Source: Desulfosarcina sp. BuS5 (GTDB lineage Bacteria > Desulfobacterota > Desulfobacteria > Desulfobacterales > BuS5). From it: 64,000 nt of DNA. The position numbers and the translations under genes are program-made. Each line of letters begins with the position of its first letter. Positions within the stretch are counted from its first letter, which is position 1. Location of the stretch: positions 3,408,501 to 3,472,500 of the forward strand of contig NZ_CP087952.1 of the NCBI RefSeq assembly GCF_028752835.1, in the 5' to 3' direction. Under the pieces are notes generated by a model, which had not been told where the DNA came from, did no database searches, and was given only the letters and a program-made list of their open reading frames with translations. Shown one piece after another: positions 3,425-59,104 of this stretch.

Positions 3425-3538
3425 TATATGCTTTAAGATAATGGTTTTGGGAAGGCCAGAGGGGGTAGGGGTTCAAAATTTTGAACCCCTACCCCGACGA
3501 CCGATAACGCAGTGAAATTATTTATGTGGAAATCTATA
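3425..3538 (-). repeat. Structured intergenic repeat, family A (copy a)
   Basis: Sense strand is minus. It starts just after the CGGC gene stop with TATAGATTTCCACATAA, carries the core AATTTCACTGCGTTATCGG, then a perfect 34-bp palindrome (3462-3495), then a GGCCTT segment and a decayed distal arm. Compare the copies at 4256, 6506, 15604, 20507, 44056, 51353, 51435 and 58980. Confidence 0.85.
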
Positions 3539-3541
3539 TAT

Positions 3542-3907
3542 CTATGCAAAAATATCATTCGGCTTGTAGGGATGCGCACCTATAATCACCTCCACGCCTG
3601 ATTTAGCTTTTATCTTGTTTATAATCATCTCATTATAAGGACAGTGGTCTTCTATACAAGCGGCAACATGTATTTTGGTTATTTTTTCTCCCATCGGTTT
3701 ATTCCAAAGATTGATTTGAGCTAATCTTGTTACGATTGTCGCGCCTGGGCAATCGCCACAATTCAGCAGGCCGACAAGTTCGACGTCATCATCTTTATAA
3801 CGGCTGAACTCACCCTCTCTTCGATTAAAAGCGACCAGACACCTTGAACATGCGATACAAACATTATCCATAGCTTTTTTACAGCCAACGATCAAAATTT
3901 TTTCCAT
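3542..3907 (-). CDS. CGGC-domain protein (putative metal-binding)
   Basis: A 121-residue protein with cysteine clusters CIACSRC, LLNCGDCPG and ACIEDHCPY, the hallmark of the CGGC domain family of presumed metal-binding proteins in anaerobes; the biochemical role is unknown. I chose ATG at 3907 because AAGGAG lies just upstream. A longer frame to 4000 exists, but it would read through the asnA remnant in another frame. The stop codon TAG falls 4 nt before the terminal TATAG of repeat copy a. The region upstream is degraded DNA, so the gene is probably transcribed alone. Confidence 0.8.
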   Translation of the reverse strand: MEKILIVGCKKAMDNVCIACSRCLVAFNRREGEFSRYKDDDVELVGLLNCGDCPGATIVTRLAQINLWNKPMGEKITKIHVAACIEDHCPYNEMIINKIKAKSGVEVIIGAHPYKPNDIFA

Positions 3908-3942
3908 TGTAAATCTCCTTTCATATGTATAATTTTTTAGCC

Positions 3943-4098
3943 TTATTCCAACACATGTATGTTTTTCTTCGCGCACATATCCTTTAGGACCTTTGGCCAT
4001 ACAGAGACGCTAACCTCTCCGATATGAGCCGCGCGTAACAGATACATAAAAGTTCTGGACTGTCCGATACCTCCTCCGATACTGATCAGCTCCTGCCA
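3943..4098 (-). pseudogene. asnA: C-terminal remnant of asparagine synthetase A
   Basis: Reading the minus strand from about 4098 to the TAA at 3943 gives [13 protein letters not shown], then [16 protein letters not shown], then a short tail ending NIHVLE. This matches the C-terminal ~45 residues of aspartate-ammonia ligase (AsnA), including the IGGGIGQSR active-site loop. Nothing upstream resembles the rest of AsnA. In another frame the preceding bases (about 4075-4141) encode a short pentapeptide-repeat-like stretch ([12 protein letters not shown]). The fragment is therefore a deletion relic, with no start codon or ribosome site of its own. Confidence 0.7.
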
Positions 4099-4255
4099 AA
4101 TTTGATCCGGTCAAATCTGCTTTTTTGTCCGCCATATTGTTCTGCTCCATTTTTTTGGTTATTAGGATACGGCTCACATCCCTGACGCATGAGTTTTGTT
4201 AAAAGGGGCTGCCACCACCCTTGCTTCCAACTCCGAATCATTATTATGCACCGTT

Positions 4256-4382
4256 TATAGGTTTTCACATAAATAATTTCACTGCGTTATCGGTCGTCTA
4301 AGTAGGGGTTCAAAATTTTGAACCCCTACCCCCCTGGCCTTGTGCCCAATTTTAAAATCTGGTAATTATCTGAAAATCTATA
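4256..4382 (+). repeat. Structured intergenic repeat, family A (copy b)
   Basis: A full 127-bp copy. The terminal arms TATAGGTTTTCACATAA (4256-4272) and the complement of TTATCTGAAAATCTATA (4366-4382) match at 15 of 17 positions. The core AATTTCACTGCGTTATCGG is followed by a perfect 28-bp palindrome (4302-4329) and CTGGCCTTGTG. The sense strand is plus, antisense to kdsB, whose stop lies 12 nt beyond the right arm. Confidence 0.88.
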
Positions 4383-4393
4383 TTTCAGTTCCT

Positions 4394-5131
4394 TCATAAA
4401 GAAACGGCTTTTATGACCTTTTTAATATCTTCCGGCCGGTCCACCCCGATACTTTGATAATCTGTAACAACAATGTGGATCGGTATATTGTTCTCCAGTA
4501 AACGCAATTGCTCCAGCTTTTCCGTATTTTCAAGCCTGCCGGCTGGCATAGAAACAAATCTTTTAAGAGTTTTCATACGAAAAGCATATAATCCTATATG
4601 TCCGTAAAGCTCAGGCTTTTCGTCATCCCGTGCATAAGGAATAATCGATCTGGAAAAATAAAGCGCTCTGTTATTCTCTCCGAAAACAACTTTAACCTGA
4701 TCAGGGTTTTCAGCATCCTCTGCGCGTATTTTTTTTGCCATTGTTGTTACAAGTATCTCGGAATCTACAAAAGGCTCAACAAGCTCCGTCAACATTTTCG
4801 GTTTCATCGCAGGTTCGTCTCCCTGTATGTTTACAACAACGGCATCCCCAGGAAGATCAAGAATATCAGCCGCCTCCATTACCCTATCGGTGCCGCTGGG
4901 ATGATCCGGCCTGGTCATTACAACGGGCACATCAAGTTCTTCCGCAGCAGAATATATCCTTGTGTCATCTGTTGCCAGAACTGTTTTTAACAGCTCGGGA
5001 CATTGGGCGGCGCGTTTAAAAACATGCCAGAACATCGGTTTGCCGAGAATGTCGGCCAGAGGCTTGGCAGGAAATCTTGTAGAAGCGTATCGGGCTGGTA
5101 TGATCCCATAGCATTCCGGAATATTTTTCAA
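4394..5131 (-). CDS. kdsB: 3-deoxy-manno-octulosonate cytidylyltransferase
   Basis: Makes CMP-Kdo from CTP and Kdo for lipopolysaccharide inner-core synthesis in the cytoplasm. The N-terminal nucleotide-binding motif [21 protein letters not shown], the HPSGTDR segment and NIQGDEP are all present, and the length (~245 residues) is normal. I chose the TTG start at 5131: it overlaps the waaA stop as TTGA and has GGAG 7 nt upstream. The frame also extends to an ATG at 5170 inside waaA, but that adds residues absent from the family. Co-transcribed with waaA, the enzyme that uses its product. Confidence 0.92.
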
Positions 5132-6444
5132 AAATTTTTCTCCTTCAAAAATTTTTCTACATAAGAACATACAATTTCAGTTCCACCTTGACGCTCTTTA
5201 ATATATTTGCCTATCGAGTCGCGCACTTTATCGCGCTGTTCCGGTTTATTAATATTTTTTTCTAACATATCGATGACATTAATCGGGTTAGCTGCGCTTG
5301 TAACAAGCCCCTGCTCAAAAATCTCGTCACCGATCCAGGCAAAATTATCCCAATAAGGGCCTACTACAGGAACCACACCGGATACAACCGCTTCCAGAAA
5401 ATTTTGCCCGCCAAGGGGGGCAAGACTACCGCCGACAAATGCTGCCGTTGATATTCCATATGCCGCCCCCAGTTCTCCGAAAACGTCCCATAAAATTACC
5501 GTGCCGGAAGATACTGTTTTATCTATTTTAGATCGCAGTACCGATGTTGCAGATATATGATTCAACCTTTCCTCCCAGGTTCCGATTCTATGCATATGCC
5601 TGGGAAAGAGCCCGATAATTATATCCGGCCGTCTTTTGAGCAGATGCAGGATAATTTCCTGAACCTGATCTTCTTCCTCGCTTCTTACTGAACCAAGTAC
5701 AATAAAAGGAGTGTTTGATGGCAATAAATTATTTAAATCCCTGTTTTCATCATCGGATAATGGGCTGTTAAGCCGGTCGAATTTCATATTCGGCATAGTT
5801 GCGACAAGCTCTTTGCCGAACAGCAGGGTGAACCGTTCTGCATCAGGAGCAGAAACGGCAAAAATTTTGTCCGGGCTCAATCTGCTGAATAGAGAATGCC
5901 AAAGTATATACCTGTTAAAACTTTTCAAGGTTATCCTGCCGTTTATGATAACAATCCTGCAGCCTGTCTTTTTTAAAGCCATCATAAGGCCCGGCCAGAT
6001 TTCCGTCTCCAGCAGGATCATTAATTTCGGACGAACCTCCTTAACGGCCTTTTTCATTATGGCAGGCTTGTCAAAGGGAAAATAAGATATAAATATTTTT
6101 TTCCCTTTTTCAGATCGCATAATATCATCAGCCGCCCGGGCAAGTATTTCAATCCCCTGCCTGGTATTGGATGTTATCAATATTCTTAAATAAGGGACGA
6201 ATCTCAAATTTTTTACAAAATTCCAGGCAAGATAGGCCTCCCCGGCCGACGCAGCCTGTATCCATAGATCTACCCCAGGCAATCCTTTTTTTAGAATCCG
6301 CTGCTCAAATCCGTCTTTAATCCTGCTGTTTATCCGGAGTAAAGGTATGGCCAAATTCCACCCCATATTATAAAGCAGGAAGGCGAATTTTTCAGCCGCA
6401 GAAATTGCAGGTATCTTTTTTGGGTTTAATTTGCGCACATCCAT
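5128..6444 (-). CDS. waaA: Kdo transferase (3-deoxy-D-manno-octulosonic acid transferase)
   Basis: A GT30-family membrane-anchored enzyme that adds Kdo from CMP-Kdo to lipid A precursors. The 438-residue length is normal. Visible marks are [13 protein letters not shown] near residue 65 (acceptor/catalytic region), [18 protein letters not shown], the FPRHMHR segment, and the C-terminal [15 protein letters not shown] that binds the CMP-sugar. Its 3' end overlaps kdsB by four bases, so the pair forms a Kdo-activation and transfer operon. The downstream boundary is repeat copy b. Confidence 0.93.
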
Positions 6445-7271
6445 CCGGATAACAGATTATTTTTTATTGGTCCCGCTGTAACCTTATATCCCTTCAGAAA
6501 TTATATATAGATTATCACATAAATAATTTCACTGCGTTATCGGTCATCGGAGTAGGGGTTCAAGATTTTGAACTCCTACCTTCCCATATTATTGTGCCCA
6601 ATTTTAAAATCGGGTAATTATCTGACAATCTATATTTCTAAAAAGAGATTACATCTATATCGATTTCAGTTCAAGAATGTTTTTAAGGATTTTCCAGGAA
6701 ATTGTAGCCCAAGCGTACAATTTGCAAAATCAAGGGTACCTTTTCAATAACTAATGGAGCTCACTGGTGATCAAATATAATCTGAAAATATATAAATCAT
6801 GCGAACTCGTCGTATATTAAAGCACACGCTCTAAAATAATTTCATTCCACTTTGCTGCAGTTTGTCAAATACGTTTGCCGGATTAACAATACATTTCAGT
6901 TGACATTTTTATATTTATAATGATAACATTTAAAATTAATTTTGTGATATTGTTTTCAATCTGATACATTATGGGCCAAATAAAATATTGATATTTGGTC
7001 TCTGGATGAGAACTGTTAAGCTTCCCAGCTTCTGCGTCAGTCTCAAATTTTTAACACTTAAAATATTTAATATATTCATATGGTTGAACCTGATTTGAAA
7101 TTTAGTCGCCTTTCTTGAACTTGAAAAAATTTAGAATTTTTATTAGGTCACTTTATTGCACAAAATGGCATAATTTGTTAATATTAAGCAATCTTTCATG
7201 GAACGAACAATGATCTGTCAATAGATTTGAAAGCTATACTTTAGAAAGGGTTATGCTCAATTAGGAGAAAA
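6445..7271. other. Long AT-rich intergenic region upstream of the Hdr operon
   Basis: No gene is supported in 827 bp. It contains repeat copy e (6506-6634). A possible sigma-70 promoter is TTGACA at 6900-6905, then 18 nt, then TAACAT at 6924-6929, which would give a ~340-nt leader before hdrA. Other promoters cannot be excluded. AGGAG at 7263-7267 serves hdrA. Confidence 0.4.
6506..6634 (+). repeat. Structured intergenic repeat, family A (copy e)
   Basis: A full 129-bp copy. Arms TATAGATTATCACATAA and the complement of TTATCTGACAATCTATA match at 15 of 17 positions. The core AATTTCACTGCGTTATCGG, a near-perfect GTAGGGGTTCAAG-type hairpin, and a distal TTGTGCCCAATTTTAAAATC segment shared with copies b and c are present. 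It lies in the waaA/hdrA intergenic region and is not at a stop codon. Confidence 0.87.
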
Positions 7272-10200
7272 ATGATGTCTGAAAATATTATTGGTTCGGT
7301 TTTGGTTGTAGGCGGAGGAATTGCGGGTATGCAATCCGCACTGGATTTGGCTAATTCAGGATACTATGTATATCTTCTGGAAAAGACACCTTCTGTTGGA
7401 GGAGTAATGGCCCAGCTGGACAAGACTTTTCCCACCAATGACTGTGCCATGTGAATTATTTCTCCAGTACTGGTCGAGGTCGGCCGGCATTTAAATATAG
7501 AGCTTATCACATATTCAGATCTTGAATCCATCAAAGGGAGCGCCGGGCATTTCAAGGTAAAAATCAAGCAAAAGGCCCGGTACATAGATATTAACAAGTG
7601 TACAAGCTGCGGTGAATGCGAAACGGTATGCCCTGTTGATATTCCGAATGATTATGATGAAGGGCTTACATCATGGAAAGCAATTTATAAACAATATGCC
7701 CAGGCTATTCCGGGTGCTTATTCCATAAAAAAAGCCGACAAGGCGCCCTGCCGTCTTGCATGCCCGGCCGGTCTGAATGTTCAAGGCTATGTTCAGATGG
7801 TAAAGCAGGGCAAATATGAGGCAGCCTTGAAAATAATAATGGAAGATCTTCCATTGCCGGGAGTGCTTGGACGTATCTGTCCGCACGAATGTGAAGATGC
7901 CTGCCGCAGGTGTGATGTTGATGAACCTGTTGCAATCCGTAATCTTAAAAGGCTGGCAGCCGATCAATTTGATCCGCGCGGGATTGAGATTCAATGCGCC
8001 CCTGCAAGAGATGAAAAAGTAGCCATTATCGGTTCCGGTCCCGCCGGACTTTCCAGTGCTTATCATCTGGCACGCAAAGGTATTCAAGCCACCATTTATG
8101 AAGCCCTGCCGGAAGCGGGCGGCATGTTGCGGGTCGGGATCCCCGATCATCGTCTGCCCAGGCAGATTCTTGATAATGAAATTGAAATCATTACCAATCT
8201 GGGTGTAGAAATTAAAACCAACAGCCCGTTGGGCCCGGATTTGAGTGTAGATGATCTTTTTAACCAGGGTTATAAAGCTGTATATCTTGCTCTTGGCGCG
8301 CATAAGGGTATAAAACTCGGTATCCCCGGAGAAGAAACAAACGGCGTTCGTCAGGGAGTAGATTTTTTAAGAGAAGTAAACCTGACAGGCAAAACTGATA
8401 TCGGGCGAAAAGTTGCCATCATAGGCGGCGGAAATGTTGCCATTGACGTAGCGCGTTGCGCTGTAAGACTTGGCGCGGATGAAGTTCAAATTATTTACCG
8501 TCGTACACGTAATGAAATGCCTGCCTGGGAAGAAGAGATTCAAGCCGCAGAGGATGAGGGCGTAAAGATTGCCTACCTTGCTGCGCCGGAGGAGGCGCTT
8601 GCCAAAGACGGCTTGGTCTGCGGGCTGAAGTGCATCAAAATGGAACTTGGCGAACCTGATGCATCCGGACGGCGCAGGCCGGTGCCCATTAAAGACAGCG
8701 AATATCTAATAGATATCGATCAACTGATTCCTGCCATTGGCCAAAGGCTTGATGACTCCACTATCAAAAATGTTACAGACTTGAATTTTACCAGGTGGGG
8801 TACAATTCAGGTGGATCCGCTTACATTTGCAACAGATCGTGACGGCCTGTTCGCAGGCGGAGACATGCAGACCGGCCCTTCGATTGCCATTGCCGCTATT
8901 GCGGCAGGGCGGGAAGCTGCTGAATCTATTATTCGTTATCTTGACGGTCAGGATCTCTCTGCAGGTCGCAATCCCGTCGGCCCTATTACCATTGAAAATT
9001 CTGATTATCAGGCTATACCTGTAAATGAACCTGTAAATCCAAGAAAACATATGCCTGAACTGGCAATTGAAAAACGAGCCCGGAATTTTGATGAAGTAGA
9101 ACTAGGCTATGATGAAGAATCCGGTAAAGCAGAAGCTGATCGCTGCCTGAATTGTGGTTATTGTTCGGAATGCTTTCAATGCGTGGATGCCTGCCTCGCT
9201 GACGCCATTATACATAATGATCAACCCCATGATAAAGAAATTGATGTCGGTTCCGTTATTCTAAGTCCCGGATTCAAGCCTTTTGATCCTTCAAAGTTTG
9301 ACATTTATGGATACTCAAATTTTGCGAATGTTATTACCTCTATGGAGATGGAGCGGATTCTAAGCGCTACAGGCCCCTACCAGGGGCACCTTCTCCGCCC
9401 GTCAGACCGTAAAGAGCCCAAAAAAATCGCCTGGCTGCAATGTATCGGTTCCAGGGATAATAACCGATGCGACAACGGTTACTGCTCATCGGTCTGCTGC
9501 ATGTATGCGGTTAAAGAAGCGGTAATAGCAAAAGAACATGCTGATTATGAACTGGATGCCGCTATATTTTTTATGGACATGCGCACATTCGGCAAAGAAT
9601 TTGAGCGGTATTATGACAATGCCAGGGAAAAAGAGGGTGTTAGGTTTATACGCTCCAGAATACATACCGTCGAGGAAGATCCTGATACAAATAATCTTTC
9701 CCTTCGTTATACGGATGAAAAGGGAAAAATTATTGTAGAGCGGTTTGACCTGGTTGTCCTATCCGTTGGTCTGGAAATATCACCTGAAGTTGCCGAACTT
9801 GCATCTACTCTTGAGGTAGAGTTAACACCTGGTAATTTTGCAAAAACCTCTCCTTTTGCCCCTGTTTCAACATCAAGAGACGGAATTTTTGTATGTGGGG
9901 CTTTTCAAGGGCCTAAAGATATTCCTCAATCTGTTGTTGATGCAAGTGCGGCCGCATCTGCTGCCGGGGAGATACTGAACGCGTCACGAAACAGTTTGAC
10001 AAAAATCAGAGAAGAAGTTCCTGAAATAAATGTAACCGGCGATCGGCCCAGGATAGGCGTGTTTGTCTGTAAATGCGGTATTAATATAGCCGGAGTTATT
10101 GATGTGCCCGGAGTCAGGGATTATGCGGCTACTTTGCCGTATGTTGAATATGTTGATGACAATCTTTATACATGTTCGCAGGATACCCAGGATGCGATGA

Positions 10201-11732: not shown

Positions 11733-11762
11733 CAAAGTTTTTTAATAAAAGGAGATATAATA

Positions 11763-12194
11763 ATGTCTGATTGGGAACCAAAAATAGTCAGTTTTCTTTG
11801 TAACTGGTGCAGTTATGGAGCTGCAGACCTGGCAGGTGTCGGGAGGATGCAGTATCCTCCGAACATACGCATAATCAGAATCCCATGCACCGGGAGGATG
11901 AGCCCCAAGTTTGCTCTTGCTGCTTTGCGGGAAGGCGCTGACGGGGTCTGGGTGTCCGGGTGACATCCTGGTGAATGCCATTACCTGGAAGGTAATTACT
12001 ATGCTCGCAGAAAATTTTCACTTTTTACGAATCTGATGGAACATATGGGTATTGAACCCGGTCGCCTACATTTTTCATGGATCTCTTCGGCTGAATCTAC
12101 AAAGTTTGTAGAAGTCGTAAATGAGGTTACCAAAGAGGTTAAGGCTCTGGGACCGAATAAACGTTTTGTAATTGACAATGCCAAGGTAGCTTAA
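11763..12194 (+). CDS. mvhD: MvhD/FlxD-like [2Fe-2S] selenoprotein
   Basis: A 143-residue subunit that in Mvh-Hdr and Flx-Hdr complexes passes electrons to HdrA. The frame continues through UGA at 11961-11963 (residue 67), which stands at the first Cys of the conserved motif usually written GCHPGDCHY; here it reads SG-Sec-HPGECHY. Other conserved cysteines are [12 protein letters not shown] (13 and 16) and IPCTGRM (42). GGAG precedes the ATG, and the stop lies one base before the next gene's ATG. Sec at this position is known from methanococcal VhuD and from some sulfate reducers. Position directly after hdrA supports a stable HdrA-MvhD unit. Confidence 0.93.
11964..11996 (+). promoter_or_regulatory. 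Putative bacterial SECIS element for mvhD
   Basis: A perfect six-bp stem ATTACC/GGTAAT (11980-11985 with 11991-11996) encloses the loop TGGAA, which begins 22 nt after the UGA. The G at loop position 2 and the spacing fit the loose bacterial SECIS consensus. Confidence 0.65.
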
Positions 12195-12195
12195 C

Positions 12196-13143: not shown

Positions 13144-13154
13144 GGGCAGATATT

Positions 13155-15603: not shown

Positions 15604-15710
15604 TATAGAGCGTCACATAAATAATTTCACTGGGTTATCGGTCGGAGATATACTTTTTTGTATTATCTCCTCACTCTATCCTTGTGAAATGAATTATGTT
15701 AAGCTCTATA
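15604..15710 (+). repeat. Structured intergenic repeat, family A (copy f)
   Basis: A 107-bp copy with arms TATAGAGCGTCACATAA and the complement of TTATGTTAAGCTCTATA, 15 of 17 matching. The core is AATTTCACTGGGTTATCGG. The inner hairpin (GGAGATA...TATCTCC) differs in sequence from other copies, and CCTTGTGAAAT can pair with the ATTTCAC of the core. It begins 5 nt after the dsrC terminator. The GGAGGG serving the next gene starts at its last base. Confidence 0.87.
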
Positions 15711-20506: not shown

Positions 20507-20637
20507 TATAAACCGTCAGATACTTACCCGATTTTAAAATTTGGCACAAGGCCAGAAGGGTAGGGGTTCAAAATCTTGACCCCCTACTCCGACGACCGAT
20601 AACGCAGTGAAATTATTTATGTGACGGTCTATCTATA
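20507..20637 (-). repeat. Structured intergenic repeat, family A (copy c)
   Basis: Sense strand is minus. It starts at the fumarase stop codon (CTA TAG), then GACCGTCACATAA, core AATTTCACTGCGTTATCGG, a GTAGGGG-type hairpin, CTGGCCTTGTG, and a distal arm TCTGACGGTTTATA. The arm bases ACCG are matched by CGGT on the other side, whereas other copies have ATTG/CAAT. Confidence 0.87.
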
Positions 20638-37359: not shown

Positions 37360-37499
37360 TTAGGGAACTGGGCAGAATTTTTGTTCATCTTCAAGGCGTG
37401 GTAACAGTTGCATAGTGAACTATACAACTGTTACCGCAACGTAGAAGACGGACAAAAGGGCAAGCAGGATGCGTAGATTATTTTCTGTAAGTTCCCTTA
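37360..37499 (-). repeat. Structured intergenic repeat, family B (copy B1)
   Basis: 140 bp bounded by arms TTAGGGAACT and AGTTCCCTTA. Inside, TTGTTCATCTTC pairs with GAAGACGGACAA (11 of 12). Between these arms, in the minus-strand sense, lies TACGTTGCGG, a hairpin of 36 bp (37400-37435) and ACGCCTTGAAG. The conserved phrase CAAGGCG ... GCAGGATG on the plus strand is shared with copy B2. Confidence 0.75.
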
Positions 37500-37681
37500 T
37501 ACACACTTAGGCAGGTTTAAATAAGATAGTTATTTCAAAGGAATGACAGTTAACTGACTGTTGTTGTAGGTTATAATAAGATAGGGGCAAGCGCCTCCAA
37601 GGTGAAGTAAAAAACTTCTAAAGATAACGTACCTTAAAAGCATATGATAGAAATGGACAAGAACCAAGAAACCGGGATGGT

Positions 37682-43208: not shown

Positions 43209-44056
43209 TGAAAGATATCGAAAAAAACAAAGAACAGTTAATAGCTGAACTGAAAAAACTCCGCACGCGGATGGCAGAGCTGGAATCCTGTAAACCCAGG
43301 GGCGAACAGACAGATTGTAACAGTAAAATAATAGATGACCGACGCCATCAAGCTATGAGGCTGGATGTGGTCAGTACCCTTGCTGGAGGTATTGCGCATG
43401 ATTTTAATAATTTGCTTATGGGGATACAGGGTAATGTTTCATTGATGTATTTAAATACAAAGCCGGATCATCCCAACTATAAGAAATTGCAGAGCATTGA
43501 GGAGAATATCGAAAGCGGGGCCGAGATTACCAGGCAAATTTTAGGTTTTGCAAGAGGTGGTAAATACCATTTCAAACCTGTCAACCTTAATGAAATTGTA
43601 AAAAAAACCGTTATCATGTTTGGAGGTTCAAGGCGCGAAATCAGGATAAAAGACGAATACCAGGAAAATTTATATAGAGTCAGGGCTGATCAGATACAGA
43701 TAGAACAGGTTCTCTTCAGTCTTTTTACAAACGCCTGGGAGGCTATGCCTGATGGAGGTAATATTTACATTAAGACCAGGGATATTGTTCTTAATAACAA
43801 TAACATCAGACCGCTCGGTGTTCCTGCAGGAAGATACGCCCAGATCACAGTAAAAGATAACGGAGCCGGTATGGATAACGCCACAAGGCAGAGAGTATTT
43901 GAACCATATTTCACAACAAAAGAGAGGGGCAGAGGCACCGGACTGGGCCTGGCCGCTGCTTTCGGTATAATAAAAGGGCATGGCGGTATGATTGAGGTGG
44001 AGAGTGAGAAGGCCAAGGGGACTACAGTTGTATTTTGCCTGCCAGCGTTGAAATAG
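43208..44056 (+). CDS. Soluble histidine kinase (NtrB-like catalytic core)
   Basis: A 282-residue kinase without membrane spans. A short coiled-coil N-terminus (KNKEQLIAELKKLRTRMAELE) leads to the H box GGIAHDFNNLL and the HATPase domain with VLFSLFTNAWEAMP, VKDNGAGMD and GRGTGLGLAAA. All catalytic motifs are present. It starts within the ubiD stop (ATGA-type overlap) but has no functional link to menaquinone synthesis. No regulator is adjacent on the same strand. The stop codon TAG is immediately followed by repeat copy i. Confidence 0.85.
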   Translation: MKDIEKNKEQLIAELKKLRTRMAELESCKPRGEQTDCNSKIIDDRRHQAMRLDVVSTLAGGIAHDFNNLLMGIQGNVSLMYLNTKPDHPNYKKLQSIEENIESGAEITRQILGFARGGKYHFKPVNLNEIVKKTVIMFGGSRREIRIKDEYQENLYRVRADQIQIEQVLFSLFTNAWEAMPDGGNIYIKTRDIVLNNNNIRPLGVPAGRYAQITVKDNGAGMDNATRQRVFEPYFTTKERGRGTGLGLAAAFGIIKGHGGMIEVESEKAKGTTVVFCLPALK

Positions 44057-44131
44057 TAGGGGTTCAAGATTTTGAACCCCTACATAGAAACAATTGATAA
44101 CGCATTGAATTTATTTATGTGACGATCGCTA
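44056..44131 (-). repeat. Structured intergenic repeat, family A (copy i, partial)
   Basis: Sense strand is minus. The stop codon TAG of the radical SAM gene is followed by CGATCGTCACATAA, a diverged core AATTCAATGCGTTATC, and the GTAGGGG hairpin (44056-44083). The distal arm is missing; the element ends at the kinase gene's stop. It lies between convergent genes. Confidence 0.8.
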
Positions 44132-50950: not shown

Positions 50951-51347
50951 TAATTCAAAAAAAAATATTGGCGCCATGGAGAACATCAAAACCGATATCC
51001 TTGAGGTTATAGAATATAAATATCACGGCAAAAGAAATATCGACATTACCATTAAGCAACCGGAATTTACATCTGTTTGTCCCATGACCGGACTCCCGGA
51101 TTTCGGATGCATAACAATCAATTATAAACCTTATGCTAAAATCGTAGAATTGAAATCACTAAAATTTTATCTGCTGCAGTACAGGAATGCAGGAGTTTTT
51201 TACGAACATCTGGTGAATCGTATTCTGGATGATCTGGTTAAGGTCCTTGCACCGTTTGATATGCAGATTGAAGGTGATTTTACAGCCCGGGGCGGAATCA
51301 CAACCAGAGTTAGAGCAGCATACAACCGGGAAGATGAAATTGACTAA
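50940..51347 (+). CDS. queF: PreQ0 reductase (7-cyano-7-deazaguanine reductase)
   Basis: NADPH-dependent reduction of preQ0 to preQ1 in queuosine tRNA modification. It is of the short unimodular type. PEFTSVCPMTGLPDFG holds Cys47 and Asp54 with the same spacing as B. subtilis Cys55/Asp62, and ELKSLKFYLLQYRNAGVFYEH is the QueF signature (NADPH binding). Several in-frame ATGs (50904, 50931, 50940, 50943, 50976) are possible; none has a strong ribosome site, and I chose 50940 by comparison with family length. The gene overlaps the end of the kinase gene, so translation is probably coupled. No preQ1 riboswitch was seen. Confidence 0.9.
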   Translation: MMHNNSKKNIGAMENIKTDILEVIEYKYHGKRNIDITIKQPEFTSVCPMTGLPDFGCITINYKPYAKIVELKSLKFYLLQYRNAGVFYEHLVNRILDDLVKVLAPFDMQIEGDFTARGGITTRVRAAYNREDEID

Positions 51348-51352
51348 TAAGG

Positions 51353-51438
51353 AAAAATCTTAAATATTCGTACCTGTAGTACGTTGATCGAAGATTTTGA
51401 CCGATAACGCATTGAAATTTATTATCTGACAATCTATA
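51353..51438 (-). repeat. Structured intergenic repeat, family A (copy h, partial)
   Basis: Sense strand is minus. Arm TATAGATTGTCAGATAA, then AATTTCAATGCGTTATCGG, then a hairpin with arms AAAATCTT/AAGATTTT (51391-51398 with 51354-51361). The distal outer arm is missing. It overlaps copy d by four bases (TATA), so the two stand in tandem in the same orientation. Confidence 0.75.
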
Positions 51439-51539
51439 GATTGTCAGATAATAAATTTCACAAGGCCAGAGGGAGGAAGGCGTATTGTAATACTCCAACG
51501 ACCGATAACGCAGTGAAATTATTTATGTGACAATCTATA
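51435..51539 (-). repeat. Structured intergenic repeat, family A (copy d)
   Basis: A full 105-bp copy, sense minus. Arms TATAGATTGTCACATAA and the complement of TATAGATTGTCAGATAA. Core AATTTCACTGCGTTATCGG, a short GTATT/AATAC hairpin instead of the GTAGGGG one, then CTGGCCTTGTGAAATTT. The dusB stop codon TAG is part of its terminal TATATAG. Confidence 0.88.
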
Positions 51540-52509
51540 TAGATCGATCATCTTGTAATACCTTCATATAGGATTTAATCAAGCCTAAAGCTTCACCCTC
51601 GGACGATATCCTGTTAATTGATTTGCGAAATCTGCCGCTGCCGGGCAAACCTTTGACAAACCAGCAAAGCCGGCTGCGCATCATGCGGCAGGCATGCTTT
51701 TCTCCAAAATATTCCACTGAATTTTTAAGATATTTTACCATAACTGCAAAGCGGTGGACAAGATTTATATCACACCGGTCTCCCCTTAGCAGCGCCAGGA
51801 TTTGTTTAAAAATTAATGGGTGCCCGATTGCTGCCCTGCCTATCATAACCGCGTCACAGCCAGTCTCTTTAAGCATTTGCAAAGCATCGTCAGGATGAGC
51901 AATATCCCCATTTCCGATTACCGGAATTGAAATATTCTTTTTAACGTCTGCAATAACCTGCCAGTCTGCATTACCTCTGAAACCCTGTGTCGCCATTCGA
52001 GGATGTACGGTAATGGCATCCGCACCCCTTTCCTGAGCTATTTCGGCAATCTTCATAGCATCTTTTCCTGATTTGTTCCACCCTGATCTGATTTTTATGG
52101 TAACAGGGATCTTTACGGCCTGGCGTAGAGCCGTTATAACCGCAGCCGCTTTATCAGGGTCTTTCATCAAGGCTGCGCCTGATCCTGTTTTAAGTACCTT
52201 TTTAACTGAACATCCAAAATTTATGTCAATCATGTCGGCTCCCACGGACTCGACCATGCGGGCTGCTTCAGCCATAATGGCCGGATCAGAGCCGAAGATC
52301 TGAACCGAAAGAGGCTTTTCGGCGGGAAGGCTGTCAAGGAGTTGTTCCGTTTTTTGGGATTTATAGACCAGACCATTAGCGCTGACCATCTCTGAGCAGA
52401 CAAGAGCCGCTCCGGCTTCTTTGGCAAGCAGCCGAAAAGGGAGATTGGTAATTCCTGCCAGAGGAGCCATAATTGTTATATTATCAAGTTTAACGGAACC
52501 GATTTTCAT
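51535..52509 (-). CDS. dusB: tRNA-dihydrouridine synthase
   Basis: A 324-residue FMN enzyme reducing uridine in the tRNA D-loop. Motifs: APLAGITNLPFRLLA at the N-terminus, DINFGCSVKKVLKTGSGAAL with the Cys-containing family loop (here GCSVKKV rather than GCPVKKV), KIRSGWNKSG, HPRMATQGFRG (catalytic region) and VIGNGDI with DAVMIGRAAIG for FMN phosphate. The length is normal for DusB. The stop lies in repeat copy d. The ATG overlaps the stop of the DUF1848 gene by four bases, so the two form an operon. Confidence 0.92.
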   Translation of the reverse strand: MKIGSVKLDNITIMAPLAGITNLPFRLLAKEAGAALVCSEMVSANGLVYKSQKTEQLLDSLPAEKPLSVQIFGSDPAIMAEAARMVESVGADMIDINFGCSVKKVLKTGSGAALMKDPDKAAAVITALRQAVKIPVTIKIRSGWNKSGKDAMKIAEIAQERGADAITVHPRMATQGFRGNADWQVIADVKKNISIPVIGNGDIAHPDDALQMLKETGCDAVMIGRAAIGHPLIFKQILALLRGDRCDINLVHRFAVMVKYLKNSVEYFGEKHACRMMRSRLCWFVKGLPGSGRFRKSINRISSEGEALGLIKSYMKVLQDDRSI

Positions 52510-53408
52510 TCCAGCGCCTCCGATTTACAGTTTTTCCTGGAAGAGGGATTTGCATAACAAAAAAGGCAGTTGTGATAGCACGGATGCATGCTGTATGATC
52601 CTACATCGACTGAAATTTTGCACCCGCAGCCTTGTTTTATTCTTTGTCCTGTATCTTTTCTCAGGGAAAGCCCCCCTCCGTATAATCTCATAAGCAGATC
52701 ATTAGGTATGCATGAACTTGCATTGATGTTTGAATCCTTGGGCAGTCCGTCAAGAAGTTCTTTTTCACAGCAGATGAACAGTCTTATATCAAGTGCTTTA
52801 AGTTCCTGTTCCATATTCAGAAGGATCTTTACCTTCTTGTCAAAATGCGGCTCAACAAATGAAAAGCCCTTTATGGATGCCGCTCTTTTTTTGATTTTTG
52901 TATAATGATCCATGAAGCTGGTGATACATCTTTTTACGCCGCACTCTGAGGCGTATTTTGCGATGCGGTTAAAATCATGCATATTGTTTTCTGTTTCACA
53001 GCTGCCTGTTTTATAAAAGCATATAGGGTCAAACCGCCAGTTTATCGATTCAGGATTAAAATGAGAGCTAAGATATGATAGTTGATCAAGACGATCATTT
53101 AATGGAGGCACGTGAGGTTCAAGTAAGGGAACGCAGGAATTTATAGTAAAGTTAAAAAAAAGGTTATATCCTTTTTTTTGCAGCATTGCGCCGAAACCGC
53201 TTTTAATAAACGGTCTGAAATTCTTTGACCAGAAAACTATCGTATGTACTTTGTCGGGAGTGGCCCGAACTATAGAAATATGCCCGTTGTAGGGATTGGT
53301 TGTTTTGAAAAAACCTTTTTTGATCTGTTCAGCAAACCATTTCAAATAAAAGGCGGGGATATCTGTTCTTCTTGAGGCGGATATTACTATCTTTTTTGCA
53401 GGCTGCAT
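52506..53408 (-). CDS. DUF1848 family protein
   Basis: A 300-residue protein of unknown function. SASRRTDIPAFY at the N-terminus, NPYNGHISIV and TIVFWSKNFRPF are the family marks. The C-terminus is Cys-rich: GCGCKISVDVGSYSMHPC, then YHNCLFCYAN. The last part reads CX3CX2C, the spacing of a radical SAM cluster, but at the wrong end of the protein for a normal radical SAM fold. Overlaps dusB by four bases and follows a small basic protein gene. Fe-S binding is likely; the reaction is unknown. Confidence 0.8.
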   Translation of the reverse strand: MQPAKKIVISASRRTDIPAFYLKWFAEQIKKGFFKTTNPYNGHISIVRATPDKVHTIVFWSKNFRPFIKSGFGAMLQKKGYNLFFNFTINSCVPLLEPHVPPLNDRLDQLSYLSSHFNPESINWRFDPICFYKTGSCETENNMHDFNRIAKYASECGVKRCITSFMDHYTKIKKRAASIKGFSFVEPHFDKKVKILLNMEQELKALDIRLFICCEKELLDGLPKDSNINASSCIPNDLLMRLYGGGLSLRKDTGQRIKQGCGCKISVDVGSYSMHPCYHNCLFCYANPSSRKNCKSEALE

Positions 53409-53423
53409 CTGAATATTTAGGTA

Positions 53424-53786
53424 TTAATGCTTTTTTCTGTTTGGTTTTCTTCTATTTGGCAGGGAAATTACCCTGGAACTACCTGCTTTTGTTGCATTTT
53501 TTTTCATTTTTACCTGGGTTTTTGTTTTTTTGTCCTCTTTTTTTTGGTCCTCTTCAGGAGAGATCACAGGTTTCAGACGCATACTTTTGCCGTTCATTGT
53601 AAATTCTGCGCCGTCAATATAAGCGCTTCGCAAAATCCATGTTACGGTTTGAACCGGTATTTGCAGTATCAGCATCTTAACATGATACCAGTCTTTTTTA
53701 TGATCAGGTAAAATTTCTTCTATTCTGGCGAAGGTCAAAGGCTTATCTTCGCAATATATCAAAACAATATCATTTTCTTGTGACAT
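53424..53786 (-). CDS. Uncharacterised small protein with basic tail
   Basis: A 120-residue protein not assigned to a family. The first ~85 residues are mixed (DIVLIYCEDKPLTFARIEEI; YHVKMLILQIPVQTVTWILR), looking like a small beta-rich domain. The C-terminal ~45 residues are strongly basic and low in complexity (KKEDKKTKTQVKMKKN ... RRKPNRKKH), suggesting nucleic-acid contact. It lies 15 nt before the DUF1848 gene on the same strand and is likely co-transcribed with it and dusB, so a link to tRNA or RNA is possible but only an inference. No ribosome site of note. Confidence 0.6.
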   Translation of the reverse strand: MSQENDIVLIYCEDKPLTFARIEEILPDHKKDWYHVKMLILQIPVQTVTWILRSAYIDGAEFTMNGKSMRLKPVISPEEDQKKEDKKTKTQVKMKKNATKAGSSRVISLPNRRKPNRKKH

Positions 53787-53960
53787 TTATATTAATAGCT
53801 CCCTTAGGAAGGATTTTCATACTTTATATACTTTTAATTTATAACATTTTTAAGATTCAAAATATAGTATTTAAGAGAATAAAAAATTAAAGTTATTTTT
53901 TTATTAGCAGATAATAAGTTGGAAATGACAAATTAATGTATAATTTTTTCAGGAGGACTT

Positions 53961-54284
53961 ATGAAAACTGAAGATTTGGTCGCTAACCTCGGTTTGGATC
54001 TTGAAGATGTAAAAGAGTTGCTGGAATTATATGTAGGCGCAACCTCATCTGATCTTAAGGCTATGCAGGAAGCCATCGATAATAATGATGCGGATATAAT
54101 TCATGAAAGAGCTCATTCCATAAAAGGCGCGTCCGGCAATCTTGGGCTTACTGATTTCTATGAATTGGCTAAAGAGATTGATGATCAGGCGCGTACAAAC
54201 AAGCTGAATGGCCTGGAAACAATATGCAATGAGTTTGCCGGCAAGTTTCAGCAACTGGTTCAGGAGATTGAAAACAGTTGTTGA
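53961..54284 (+). CDS. Histidine phosphotransfer (Hpt) protein
   Basis: A 107-residue Hpt domain relaying phosphate between receiver domains. The phospho-His is in IIHERAHSIKGASGNLG (near residue 52), followed by LAKEIDDQAR, with the usual four-helix pattern. AGGAGG precedes the ATG. It overlaps or abuts the sensor kinase gene that follows, and a sigma-54 regulator comes after that, so the three form a phosphorelay operon. The hybrid kinase at 48959, which ends in a receiver, is another possible partner. Confidence 0.88.
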   Translation: MKTEDLVANLGLDLEDVKELLELYVGATSSDLKAMQEAIDNNDADIIHERAHSIKGASGNLGLTDFYELAKEIDDQARTNKLNGLETICNEFAGKFQQLVQEIENSC

Positions 54285-55908
54285 TTATCTCATTACACCC
54301 AAAGAATATGGGGGGCGGCTCTCCGGCAAGAAGCAAAAGGATGTCAAATTGTTTGCCGGACGATTAAAAACATACTTTACAATCAATACGGCTTTTTTTT
54401 TATTTATCGGAATGCTCCTGATAGATCTGGTTATTGTAAAATTGGATCAAAAAGTTCTTTTAAAATCAGAAATTTTAAAAGGGTTTTTCCTTCTTTCCGC
54501 CTTTGAGAGCAGTCTGCAGCAGTCTGCAGAAGAAGAAAATAGTTTTTTTAGTATTAAAACCAAATGTTTATTCCGTACTTTTTTAAAAGAATCAGGCTTT
54601 AACTTTGCATTGTTTATAGATATGCAAAAAAGAAAATATTTTTTCGGAAAGTGTGAAATCAATCGGAACAAGCTTGTGGTTCTAAGCAAAAAAGCCGGAT
54701 TGACTGAAAAAAGAATAATTTCATTTTCTGATTCAATCCGATCCGGTTCGATTTGGGGTGTTTTATGGAAAGAACAGCGATATCTAATTATTTTCTCTCC
54801 TCTATCCATAAATAAAGATTCATCGGCAAGCGTCAGTATAGTCCTCGATCTTGTTAAAATATATAATCAGACCGGGCAGACCCAAAAGATCATTTTTATC
54901 TACCTGTTAATAAACACAGCCATATTAACATTTATCAGTGTCAAACGAATCTCCCGGGCAACAGTAACGCCACTCAAAAGACTGCTGAACAATGCTGAAG
55001 AATTCAGGGAAGATGGGGACATGTTTTTAATACATGCAAAAGAGAGTGATGAGTTCAGCCGGCTTTCTTCTTCCTTAAACCGCATGTTACAACGGATTGC
55101 CAATGACAAGGAGAAGCTCAGGGTTACTGTAAGGTCTCTTGAAAAAACAAATCTAAAACTCAAGGAGGCTCAAAAGGAACTCGTTAAGGCGGAAAAGCTG
55201 GCTTCCGTAGGCCGCTTGTCAGCCGGTATTGCCCATGAAATCGGGAATCCGATCAGCATAATTATCGGTTATCTGGAACTGCTCAAGCAGCAGAACATCA
55301 GCAATAATGAAAAAAACGATTTTCTACATCGAGCAAAAGATGAAATAAACAGGATTAATACAATAATCCGGCAGCTTCTTGATTTTTCAAGAACTTCAGA
55401 GGAAAATATCAAAAACATTTCCGTGCATGAAATTATAAATGACATATCACAAATCTCTAAGATACAACCATGGTTGTCGGGTATAACAATAGAACTCCGT
55501 TTAGCTGCCGCAAAAGATACTATTAATGCAGATTCAAATCAATTAAGACAGGTCTTTATGAATCTGATTATCAATGCCTCTGATTCCATAGCCTCTTCTC
55601 CTGAAAAGATAAAAGGAAAAATATATATAACCACTGAAAATATTGAAAAAATATTCTTTGGAGCAGCCGAGCCGGTTCAAATGCTGAAAATCATGTTTAC
55701 GGATAATGGCCCGGGAATTTCCGAAGCTGATATTGAAAATATTTTCGATCCCTTTTATACAACTAAAGAGCCTGGCAAAGGAACCGGTTTGGGTCTTTAT
55801 GTTTGTTTTATGATAATCGATAAAATGAGTGGAAAGATAGAAGTTAAAAGCAGCGAATATAATACAACAATATCGATTACCCTGCCTTTATTAAATCATC
55901 ACTTCTGA
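54208..55908 (+). CDS. Membrane sensor histidine kinase of the Hpt operon
   Basis: A kinase of up to 566 residues: a first span (TAFFLFIGMLLIDLVIV), an extracytoplasmic domain (~85-225), a second span (IIFIYLLINTAILTFI), HAMP-like linker, coiled coil, H box ASVGRLSAGIAHEIGNPISI, and HATPase with NLIINASDSIA, FTDNGPGI and GKGTGLGLYV. The start is uncertain: ATG 54208 lies inside the Hpt gene without a ribosome site, and TTG 54268 is an alternative close to the Hpt stop. It pairs with the sigma-54 regulator encoded 9 nt downstream, which is now disrupted. Confidence 0.88.
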   Translation: MAWKQYAMSLPASFSNWFRRLKTVVDYLITPKEYGGRLSGKKQKDVKLFAGRLKTYFTINTAFFLFIGMLLIDLVIVKLDQKVLLKSEILKGFFLLSAFESSLQQSAEEENSFFSIKTKCLFRTFLKESGFNFALFIDMQKRKYFFGKCEINRNKLVVLSKKAGLTEKRIISFSDSIRSGSIWGVLWKEQRYLIIFSPLSINKDSSASVSIVLDLVKIYNQTGQTQKIIFIYLLINTAILTFISVKRISRATVTPLKRLLNNAEEFREDGDMFLIHAKESDEFSRLSSSLNRMLQRIANDKEKLRVTVRSLEKTNLKLKEAQKELVKAEKLASVGRLSAGIAHEIGNPISIIIGYLELLKQQNISNNEKNDFLHRAKDEINRINTIIRQLLDFSRTSEENIKNISVHEIINDISQISKIQPWLSGITIELRLAAAKDTINADSNQLRQVFMNLIINASDSIASSPEKIKGKIYITTENIEKIFFGAAEPVQMLKIMFTDNGPGISEADIENIFDPFYTTKEPGKGTGLGLYVCFMIIDKMSGKIEVKSSEYNTTISITLPLLNHHF

Positions 55909-57022
55909 GGCGACGCCATGAATGAAAAAAAAACCGTAAAGACCAAACCTTTTAAGAAGAAACTATTGGTAATTGATGACGAAAAAAATATGCGTCACAT
56001 GCTCTCTGCTATGCTTGCACGGTCAGGGTATATGGTTGATACCGCTCCCGACGGTCAAGCAGGCTTGCAGAAAGTAAATAACTCCATCCAAAAATTAAAA
56101 CCATACGCCTTTATTCTTTGTGATCTTAAAATGCCCAATATGAGCGGAATGGAATTCCTTGATTCGGTCCGGGACAAAATCAAGGAGACAACCGTTATAA
56201 TGATGTCCGCCTATGGCACAATCGATACCGCCATCAAAGCCATGCAGCAGGGCGCATACGACTATATATCAAAACCGTTTAATATTGATGAGGTTCTGCT
56301 GGCTCTGAAAAAAGCCGAGGAACGGGAAAACCTTAAACATGAAAACTTTAAACTTAAAGAACGGCTCCGGAAGATTGAAGATAGTTATAGCTTCGGCAGC
56401 ATGATTGCCGGAAGCGCCAAAATGGAATCTGTTTTCAGGCTTGCCAAAAAAGCTTCCGAATACGATTCAACCGTTTTAATCCAGGGAGAAAGCGGAACAG
56501 GCAAAGAGCTGATTGCAAAAGCTCTGCATTTCAACGGTATTAGAACAAAGAAAGCTTTTGTTCCTGTTAATTGTGGAGGAATCCCGGATAATCTGCTTGA
56601 GAGTGAATTTTTTGGTTATAAAAAAGGCGCTTTTACCGGCGCGGATAGAGACAAAAAAGGGTTTTTTGAAGAAGCGGGCATGGGCTCTATTTTTCTTGAT
56701 GAAATCGGAGAGCTTTCCTTAAATTTGCAGGTAAAGCTTCTCCGTACTTTACAGGAAAACGAAATTAGACCTTTAGGTGATTCGCAAACAAGGAAAATAG
56801 ATGTCCGTGTTATTGCCGCCACATCAAAAAAACTCGAATATGAAGTAAAAAAAGGAGCCTTCCGTGAGGATCTATTTTACAGGCTTAATGTTTTACCGAT
56901 AAATATTCCTCCATTGAGGGATCGTATTGAAGATATACCGATTTTAAGCAACCATTTCCTTGAAAAGTTCAATAAAAAATTCAACAAAAACATATCGGAA
57001 ATATCGCCCGGAGCATTATCTA

Positions 57023-57028
57023 TACTTA
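57023..57028 (+). repeat. Left 6-bp target-site duplication (TACTTA)
   Basis: TACTTA directly precedes the left IS end and is repeated at 58674-58679. Deleting one copy restores the interrupted reading frame. Confidence 0.92.
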
Positions 57029-58673
57029 GTATCTGCTGAATTTCTTTTTTATGAAAGAAATGCTTTGCTATCCATAGCAGTATATGCCATTTTTTAAATT
57101 GCAGCTAAATGGTATTTTAAGCACTCTAAAAAGGATAGGAGGTATTCTGATGATAAAAAATACTTTTGAAGAAGTTCTTTCTGATGAATGGGTGAAAGCA
57201 AATATAACCAATCCAGTTCAGGAATTGGTTATTATCCGTGGGATAATTCCATGGCAAAAAATGATTACAAAGTTGTGTAAATTTTATAACACCAGTCAGG
57301 GTGCTTTTGGAAAATCTCTCAGGATGATGACAGCGATTTTGATTTGTATAAAATACTATCAATTAAGTGATAGGCAAATGGTTAAGCATATAAAAGAAAA
57401 CCACTATATTCAATATTTTTGTAACATCACAAATGAGGAATTGCAAACATGCCTGGATCCGAGTTCTATATGTGTATTTCGAAAACGTATAGGTGAAGAA
57501 GGTGTTGAAATTATAGAAAAAGAAGTTTTTGAGGTTCTACGCAAAGCTGGGATAATACAGGGTGATAATGCTATGATAGATTCAAGCGTATTGAAAAATA
57601 ACGTTATCTATCCAAATGATGTACATTTAATTTTTAAAGCTTTTGACAAAATGAAACAATTTGCCGTTTTGCATCAAATCTCCTTGTGGTGGGACAATAA
57701 TGAAGTAAAAAAATTATGGCGAGAATTTTTTTTGAACAAAAAACAAAACCGTTTGGAATGGTTACTCAAATTTAATATATTATTTATTCCTGCTCTAAAA
57801 ATATTTGATAAAAAAGTTGAATCATTAAAGACCACAAAGAAAAAACAAATAAAAGCTGACAATATGTTTGCTATTCTTACTATTCTTGAAGCACAAACCT
57901 TAGAAAAACTCGAAGGTAAAAAACAGATAAAAAACCGGATTGTATCCATTGATGAACCGGATGCCCGCCCGATTGTAAAAGGAAAAGAGCATCCGAAGTG
58001 TGAATTCGGCACAACAATGGAAATGACTTTCAATAGGGAAGGATTCATGATTACCATTGAAAATTTTATCGGTAATCCAAATGATAAAACGCTTTTTGCT
58101 GGAACACTCGAACAGTTCAAAAAACGGATGAAAGGCGAACCGGAAAATATTATTACCGACCTTGGTTACAGAAGCAATGGTAATTTTAAAATTGCAGACA
58201 ATATCAGTAACGTTTTTTTGGGGCGTAAAAAAGATGTATCCGAAGAAAAACAGAGTTTTTGCTGTAAAGCCCGTTCAGCAACAGAAGGTTTCATAGCTAT
58301 TGCAAAAAATATTAGAGGTTTTGGATGCAGTCTTTATAGAGGATTTGAAGGAGACCGTATATGGTCATTGCTTTGTCAAACCGCTTATAATCTTAAAAAG
58401 TTTATTCAGCTTCTAATGGGAGAAAAGATTGAAGAAAAAAAACTGATGAAACTCGGGCTGGCATAAGCCGAACAAGGATTTTATCAAAAATAGTTGATTT
58501 TAAAAAATATGCGGATAGGAGAGGTGCGTCTATAGGTGTTAACAATTTGCCGTTTTTTACCAAAATTCAATTAAAATACCACAAATGAGCTTAAAATTTT
58601 AGATTAAAATTCTCTATGATTAATATATGAACAATGCTGATATACTATGTTATTATCGAAATTCAGCGGATAC
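57029..58673 (+). mobile_element. Complete insertion sequence, 1,645 bp
   Basis: Bounded by 16-bp inverted repeats GTATCTGCTGAATTTC (57029-57044) and the complement of GTATCCGCTGAATTTC (58658-58673), one mismatch, flanked by 6-bp target duplications. It carries a single intact transposase. Size, single long DDE gene, inverted repeats and 6-bp duplication resemble the ISDol1-like group (ISNCY) known from related sulfate reducers; the name is from memory. The insertion looks recent, because both ends, the duplication and the split host gene are well preserved. Confidence 0.93.
57150..58466 (+). CDS. DDE transposase of the 1,645-bp IS
   Basis: A 438-residue transposase. ATG 57150 has AGGAGG 7 nt upstream; an upstream in-frame ATG at 57084 is less likely. 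An N-terminal IS5-like helical domain (QGAFGKSLRMMTAILICIKYY; LSDRQMVKHIKEN) is followed by the first Asp in AMIDSSVLKNNVIYPNDVHL, the second in IITDLGYRSNGNFK, and the Glu in SATEGFIAIAKNIRGFG. An insertion of about 90 residues separates the first two. The YPNDVHL phrase is common in IS5/ISNCY transposases. No frameshift is seen, so it should be active. Confidence 0.88.
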   Translation: MIKNTFEEVLSDEWVKANITNPVQELVIIRGIIPWQKMITKLCKFYNTSQGAFGKSLRMMTAILICIKYYQLSDRQMVKHIKENHYIQYFCNITNEELQTCLDPSSICVFRKRIGEEGVEIIEKEVFEVLRKAGIIQGDNAMIDSSVLKNNVIYPNDVHLIFKAFDKMKQFAVLHQISLWWDNNEVKKLWREFFLNKKQNRLEWLLKFNILFIPALKIFDKKVESLKTTKKKQIKADNMFAILTILEAQTLEKLEGKKQIKNRIVSIDEPDARPIVKGKEHPKCEFGTTMEMTFNREGFMITIENFIGNPNDKTLFAGTLEQFKKRMKGEPENIITDLGYRSNGNFKIADNISNVFLGRKKDVSEEKQSFCCKARSATEGFIAIAKNIRGFGCSLYRGFEGDRIWSLLCQTAYNLKKFIQLLMGEKIEEKKLMKLGLA

Positions 58674-58679
58674 TACTTA
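58674..58679 (+). repeat. Right 6-bp target-site duplication (TACTTA)
   Basis: Matches 57023-57028 exactly and directly follows the right inverted repeat of the IS. Confidence 0.92.
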
Positions 58680-58979
58680 TAAAGCACTCGTGGCCTGGAA
58701 ATGTGAGAGAACTTGAAAATATCATTGAACGGGCTGTAATTTTTTCAGAAAAAAAAATTATTCTTCCGGAAAATCTTCCCCGGGAATTTGGTATCAAAGC
58801 AGGCGCCGCCAGAATTGATGATTTTTTTAAGGGTTTCTCGATAAAAAAAGCTCAAAAAATTATGGAAAAAAGGCTTATACTAAGAGCTCTGGAATCTACC
58901 GGCGGCAACCGTACAAAATCAGCCAAACTTCTTGAAATCAGCCACCCTTCTCTGTTAAGTAAAATAAAAACATACAAAA

Positions 58980-59104
58980 TATAGCTTTTCAAATAAATAA
59001 TTTCACTGAGTTATCGGTCAAACCCTGAGTAGTGGCACGATACATCGTGCCACTACTCAGGGTTTCCCTTTATCCTTGTGAGATTAATTGTCTGAAAAGC
59101 TATA
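58980..59104 (+). repeat. Structured intergenic repeat, family A (copy g)
   Basis: A full 125-bp copy. Arms TATAGCTTTTCAAATAA and TTGTCTGAAAAGCTATA pair perfectly over TATAGCTTTTCA. The core AATTTCACTGAGTTATCGG is followed by a perfect long palindrome centred on GATACATC (about 59020-59065) that differs from other copies, then CCTTGTGAGATT. It begins at the regulator's stop codon (ATA TAG). Confidence 0.88.

Follow-up and report, generated by a model that had tools for sequence, protein, structure and literature searches.

Nine repeats with matched arms in a Desulfosarcina genome are very probably copies of a TA-inserting miniature transposable element

Why should a short repeat, scattered over one stretch of a bacterial genome, change both arms of its hairpin together while a loop between them stays fixed? 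The question is raised by nine repeats lying between positions 3425 and 59104 of a 64,000-nucleotide stretch of Desulfosarcina sp. BuS5 (NCBI RefSeq assembly GCF_028752835.1, contig NZ_CP087952.1, positions 3,408,501 to 3,472,500 of the forward strand), hereafter the window. A first-pass annotation, made from the letters alone, had taken this paired change as a sign of selection on folding, as for an RNA or a protein-bound DNA structure, rather than as the remains of a simple decayed miniature inverted-repeat transposable element (MITE). We find that the nine repeats are very probably copies of a gene-less, non-autonomous DNA transposon of the MITE type, 105-129 bp long, which inserts at TA. 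The family is apparently an undescribed one within the known class of TA-duplicating bacterial MITEs, and neither its core nor the complement of the core occurred in the literature searched.

Anatomy, distribution and insertion of the element

The element has TATAG...CTATA ends, a conserved core on one side only and an exchangeable central hairpin. From 130 short-form copies in many genomes, the terminal inverted repeats (TIRs) were found to be imperfect and about 27 bp long, with the formula TATAG NNNNN CA S ATAAATAATTTCAC ... GTGAAATTTATTAT S TG NNNNN CTATA; a near-tip stretch of 5-7 bp varies among copies. In the short form, whose canonical sequence is TATAGATTGTCACATAAATAATTTCACTGCGTTATCGGTCGTTGGAGTATTACAATACGCCTTCCTCCCTCTGGCCTTGTGAAATTTATTATCTGACAATCTATA (51435-51539), the core segment AATTTCAC pairs with GTGAAATT at the opposite end and the internal loop consists of TGCGTTATCGGTC alone. 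The core had been described as single-stranded, which holds for TGCGTTATCGGTC and fails for AATTTCAC. When the window was searched with the 25-base core ATAAATAATTTCACTGCGTTATCGG (at most 3 mismatches, chance level taken from shuffles), matches were found at 3501(-), 4269(+), 6519(+), 15617(+), 20596(-), 51401(-), 51502(-) and 58993(+), with a shuffle expectation of 0. Eight of the nine sites therefore carry the core, and the ninth (44056) is degenerate. The start positions given by the first-pass annotation were correct for all copies with both ends (3425, 4256, 6506, 15604, 20507, 51435, 58980).

The search was extended to the whole genome and to other Desulfobacterota, as the first-pass annotation had proposed. 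A 17-base core with at most one mismatch gave 166 copies across the 4.18-Mb genome, while the reversed control pattern gave 0. Stretches around copies and related loci were fetched from this genome (G000) and others and are labelled L001 and so on; 107 copies of the host genome were read initially and 121 for the final count of modules. By simple calling of open reading frames (ORFs), only 5 of 95 host-genome copies overlapped an ORF by more than 50 bp and 90 did not. The element thus has the short size (<200 bp), the lack of coding capacity, the many scattered copies and the TIRs of a TA-duplicating bacterial MITE. With one mismatch allowed, the core was also present in 13 of 58 relatives belonging to separate families of the order, at a few to about 100 copies each, and its spread over these families is patchy. 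Of 297 genomes sampled over the phylum (the host genome counted), 5 contain the exact core, two of these lying outside the order; records with it were assigned to Desulfobacterales, Desulfobacteraceae, Desulfococcaceae, Desulfatirhabdium, Candidatus Desulfaltia, unclassified deltaproteobacterial bins and one 'Proteobacteria' bin. Among the 13 relatives, one single-copy core match (L118) had no surrounding element. Carriage by phage was considered and rejected, as no exact core was found in viral contigs.

To examine insertion we looked for empty sites: the two flanks of each filled site were closed up and matched against the remaining fetched loci. Filled locus L004 corresponded to an empty site at 37372-37499 of the window with 97.7% identity, reading GTGAAC-TA-[TAGACC...CAATCTA]-TA-TACAACTG when filled and GTGAAC-TA-TACAACTG when empty. 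Three further pairs agreed (L229 with window 37495-37645, L016 with L064 and, when point changes were allowed, L250 with L096), and the overall pattern was N-TA-[TAGA...TCTA]-TA-N. Among 143 copies the target was two-fold symmetric to three bases per side (ATMTAKAT) and roughly flat farther out, with A in 72/143 at -3, T in 74/143 at +3, A or C at -1 and G or T at +1. TA is thus duplicated on insertion, with both filled and empty sites observed, and the symmetric target together with the duplication indicates double-strand transposition into TA. Given these results and the 166 copies, the contrast that had been drawn between this repeat and a MITE fails.

Table 1. Element copies and empty target sites within the window
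Feature	Position	Strand	Details
Element copy	3425..3538	-	tip GATTTCC; inner GTAGGGGTTC palindrome; rare third right-end form (CTTCCCAAAA); arms unmatched
Element copy, long right end	4256..4382	+	tip GGTTTTC vs GAAAATC, one mismatch; inner GTAGGGGTTC palindrome
Element copy, long right end	6506..6634	+	tip GATTATC vs GACAATC, one mismatch; inner GTAGGGGTTC palindrome
Element copy, short right end	15604..15710	+	tip GAGCGTC, two mismatches; inner GGAGATA hairpin
Element copy, long right end	20507..20633	-	tip GACCGTC vs GACGGTT, one mismatch; inner GTAGGGGTTC palindrome
Degenerate copy	about 44056..44131	-	left end, diverged core (ATAAATAAATTCAATGCGTTATCAA), GTAGGGGTTC palindrome; no recognisable right end
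Truncated or diverged copy	51321..51438	-	no recognisable right end; 51321 is a nominal limit only
Canonical 105-bp short form	51435..51539	-	tips GATTGTC/GACAATC, perfect match; inner GTATTACAATAC
Element copy	58980..59104	+	tips GCTTTTC/GAAAAGC, perfect match; long unique inner hairpin AAACCCTGAGTAGTGGCACGAT...
Empty target sites	37372..37645	.	element and duplicated TA in related stretches L004 (37372-37499) and L229 (about 37495-37645)

Several further arrangements were seen at the insertion sites. Abutting copies are joined by a common CTATAG at window 51321-51539, L032 and L079, as if one end had served as the TA target of the next copy. Near 1590-1640 of L001, two head-to-head left tips (TATAGATGTTCACATAAATTATTTATGTGACGAGCTATAGG) directly adjoin a full copy and may be a minimal or internally deleted element. 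Locus L027 of the host genome and L225 share same-site flanks with 92% identity, and the left tip comes from another subfamily, a pattern like that of conversion or replacement at the same site. A second dispersed repeat, with the palindrome GTAACAGTTGCATAGTGAACTATACAACTGTTACC, hosts an insertion of the element (window 37372-37499; L004, L005, L031, L214, L045, L212); similar copies of this repeat are present at several loci and in other genomes.

Exchanged modules and paired change in the arms

The middle of the element proved to be modular. In the 121 copies counted, the right end was long in 61, short in 48, of a third form in 2 and not recognisable in 10, while the inner classes were GTATT (50), the GTAGGGGTTC palindrome (49), the GTAGAGACGC palindrome (7), GGAGATA (6) and others (9). 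Tips fell into four or more classes, and tip, inner module and right end occurred together in 34 different ways, suggesting that the inner hairpin, which the first-pass annotation saw as wholly changed yet still paired, changes mostly by exchange of modules and not by base-by-base compensation; that its stems covary was borne out. The module GTAGGGGTTC...GAACCCCTAC is a separate palindrome that is also found alone, and the GTAGGGGTTCAARATTTTGAACCCCTAC module likewise stands by itself elsewhere in the genome. This GTAG-type palindrome gave 128 half-site matches genome-wide and was seen outside the element at L094, L096, L097, L098 and L105, so that the inner palindrome is an independent, GTAG-tagged repeat of the repetitive extragenic palindrome (REP) type. 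As to an adjacent RAYT (Y1) gene, none of these palindromes lay near the 10 Y1 transposase loci read, out of 32 Y1 matches in the genome. At L105 (400-600), three GTAGGGGTTC palindromes within about 160 bp, plus partial copies, lie outside the element; in one lineage (L149, L224, L239) a small palindrome, CCCGCTGAAAGCGGG, is inserted ahead of the right-end TIR.

Paired change was measured in two alignments, A2 (32 copies of one inner class from many lineages) and A1 (21 copies of another inner class), against shuffled and slid controls, which model relatedness incompletely. In A2, 17 pairs had changed on both sides against 10.0 after shuffling (0/500) and at most 9 in slid controls, and 87 both-side cells were counted against 36 shuffled and at most 13 slid. 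In A1, 8 pairs had changed on both sides, a number reached by 30/500 shuffles, with 32 cells against 11.7 (0/500). At tip columns 6-11, Watson-Crick pairs made up 77.8%, compared with 61.9% when shuffled overall and 72.8% when shuffled within record groups (0/2000), the latter test being conservative for the many public bins that are split by contig. Within the host genome alone the values were 85.7% and 70.7% (0/5000).

The covariation is therefore real: as the first-pass annotation had proposed, the arms change together, across Desulfobacterota lineages and inner stems included, and the result that it said would count against it, no significant covariation in a larger alignment, was not obtained. 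The four arm pairs that it quoted exist as selected examples. Over the 7-nt tip only the copies at 51435 and 58980 match perfectly; the others have one mismatch or two, are unmatched, or have no right arm (Table 1). Some common subfamilies carry fixed tips that do not pair (GATTTCC/GAAAATC, GATGTTC/GAAAATC), and copies with mixed arms exist. Diverging TIR subfamilies are expected to give matched terminal arms such as those seen, and the covariation fits co-evolving TIR subfamilies with maintenance of DNA hairpins, not selection on RNA.

For a MITE, the following course of events may be proposed. A transposase acting in trans, probably of the DDE type, would bind the conserved inner TIR and the core and would cut at the TATA ends. 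The 5-7 bp near the tip would then be free to drift, and because both ends would be kept alike within a subfamily the arms would change together. Common recognition, exchange between copies or hairpin-templated correction could each keep the ends alike. The middle would behave as a cassette, in which copies trade central hairpins and right ends and where an independent palindrome of the GTAG type has settled.

It is also possible, if doubtful, that mutation and not selection keeps the arms paired, with template switching or hairpin-templated repair copying one arm onto the other. Any long palindrome would then show paired change, and the process could act alongside the transposon explanation. 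It would account for the equal numbers of one-sided changes leaving G·T and A·C (see below), which show neither strand's pairing chemistry to be favoured, and for the palindromes of standalone type inside the element, which come in paired variants (GTAGGGGTTC and GTAGAGACGC forms). On the other hand, among copies at the same site in related genomes, the L021/L133 pair has decayed unpaired, with no paired conversion, though such pairs are few; L201 and L246 are nearly identical.

RNA, folded DNA and the search for a partner transposase

Folding of the element is strong: against mononucleotide shuffles, mean z is about -4.5 for one strand and about -5.1 for the other. A structured RNA family, regulatory or processed into 3' fragments, selected for its fold and spread by duplication, would agree with this, and bacterial MITE transcripts are known to fold into long stem-loops, NEMIS RNA having been proposed to act via RNase III (PMC2229807). 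The strand complementary to the core was the more stable in 51/60 sampled host-genome copies, mainly through inherited C·A tip mismatches; this excess was not seen in private mutations. Selection on a transcript should let changes that leave G·U persist longer than those that leave A·C. Private one-sided changes left 77 G·T and 81 A·C in total (53 and 64 in the outer stem, column 13 omitted; 24 and 17 in the inner stems), so that there is no wobble bias and no wobble-tolerant pairing of one strand. At tip columns 6-10, 109 A·C against 6 G·T cells at first resembled selection for G·U on the minus strand; this opposite-strand RNA was rejected, as the excess is inherited by subfamily and private changes are balanced. 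The fixed C·A mismatches on the core strand of common subfamilies also speak against an RNA. By simple ORF calling, copies lay between tandem genes in the same (25) or opposite (29) orientation, convergent genes (17) or divergent genes (16), with no preferred orientation or gene end, and no Rfam match was obtained at the gathering score. We found no result that requires the element to work as RNA, and consider a structured RNA very unlikely. The first-pass suggestion of selection on folding as RNA thus goes unsupported; its other suggestion, a protein-bound DNA structure, is still conceivable, as protein-bound or folded DNA.

A mobile element that needs its folded state, with hairpin or cruciform DNA read by shape (HUH/Y1- or attC-like), would have its stems kept paired by selection through changes of their sequence, with a constant internal-loop core. 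We regard this as unlikely. In its favour are stems that covary, outer and inner alike, in many lineages with an unchanging internal loop, and the 32 Y1 transposase matches in a genome where no DDE partner was found. Known Y1/IS200 elements insert without target duplication. Here, unlike in those elements, insertion duplicates TA, at a target with two-fold symmetry; the inverted repeats at the 10 Y1 loci read are different ones, on which ground the Y1 transposases were rejected as partners, and common subfamilies keep unpaired tips. A widespread Desulfobacterota MITE requiring a folded cruciform or hairpin, in which the transposase reads the fixed internal-loop motif and tip and inner stem change only in matched pairs, is improbable to a like degree; if true, this would make it a double-strand transposon that duplicates TA and is recognised by its structure.

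Several observations weigh against a MITE mobilised by a DDE transposase. The inner stems, which such a transposase should not need, covary besides the outer stem, and the one-sided core TGCGTTATCGG is conserved beyond what a symmetric TIR model requires. DDE_3 (PF13358) gave 0 matches in the host genome, which has no IS630-type transposase, and no full-length insertion sequence (IS) sharing the TIRs was present in the loci read. The PF01609 and Y1 elements sampled have other ends. Of the pair of findings that the first-pass annotation had named as able to refute it, TA duplications were seen, and a transposase with identical terminal repeats was not found in the loci read. In the bacterial MITEs of the Delihas review a partner IS is known for RUP only (PMC2229807), so that the missing partner is the usual situation here.

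Individual candidates for a partner were tried and rejected. PF13358 matches occurred in 4/12 genomes searched, none with the ends of the element; the relatives' IS630 genes have other ends, and at L251 the element next to such a gene is a complete copy in its own right. The element is therefore not seen as an IS630-derived MITE of the RUP kind. No autonomous long version, with core and right end 0.7-4 kb apart around a transposase, was recognised in the fetched loci. Locus L299 was rejected as such a version: to judge from where its inverted repeats lie, an IS that has ends CCCATCTTTTTGA and encodes a 630-aa transposase apparently sits inside, and interrupts, an element copy (1609-3831).

The genome is rich in other mobile elements. 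PF01609 gave 102 matches, with about 40 near-identical 390-aa transposases with ends CAGTAGTGTCCGGTTA; two matches lie in the window (about 215-829 and about 57996-58394), one of them directly upstream of the copy at 58980. Thirteen of the 32 Y1 (HUH) matches fall within about 45 kb (3.849-3.894 Mb, G000:C1). Many in this cluster (L259, L261-L263, L266) are about 338 aa long, with the two halves of a 21-bp inverted repeat, GGGACGTCTATGATATTATGC, on either side at a distance of about 1.1 kb; they resemble the TIRYT kind of PMC3733652, at unusually high copy number.

Meaning and relation to known systems

These results add a MITE family, at tens to more than 100 copies per genome, for several Desulfobacterota lineages. 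They also call for caution, as covariation in dispersed palindromes can pass RNA tests though it arises from the way in which inverted repeats of mobile DNA evolve. With tips and inner stems that drift in step around a constant loop, the element lends itself well to the question whether bacterial MITEs are recognised by their sequence or by the fold of their DNA.

By size, TA termini, duplication and folding, Correia/NEMIS, RUP and ERIC belong to the same class (PMC2229807). Correia/NEMIS of Neisseria resembles the element, by its published description, in length (about 105-155 bp), in a TIR that is likewise long (24 bp against about 27 here), and in TA termini, target duplication, stable hairpin and modular middle (its 107- and 155-bp forms) (PMC2229807). 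Its host belongs to another phylum, and the present element differs in having tips that vary yet match and a central palindrome that is exchanged. RUP of Streptococcus pneumoniae is non-coding, 107 bp long and present in more than 100 mostly intergenic copies with a TA target (PMC2229807); its proposed partner is IS630-Spn1, with the same TIR, whereas here there is no IS630-type transposase and no examined IS shares the ends. ERIC/IRU of enterobacteria is likewise palindromic, about 127 bp long, with TA termini, target duplication and no known transposase (PMC2229807), but has a 7-bp TIR and another host group, while the copies described here exchange modules and vary at the tip.

The nearest precedent for the nested architecture is found in Anabaena variabilis, where GTAG-15 dimers lie within TATAGGA...TCCTATA palindromes (PMC3733652). 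In about half of the host-genome copies a GTAG palindrome is similarly nested in TATAG...CTATA, and the same source describes alternative complementary residues in the stems of GTAG families. The outer palindrome of Anabaena was not seen without a GTAG unit, whereas that of the element studied here commonly lacks one. The two also differ in phylum, outer sequence and core, and the relevant passage of PMC3733652 reports no transposition or TA duplication for the outer palindrome, in contrast to the TA duplication seen in Desulfosarcina.

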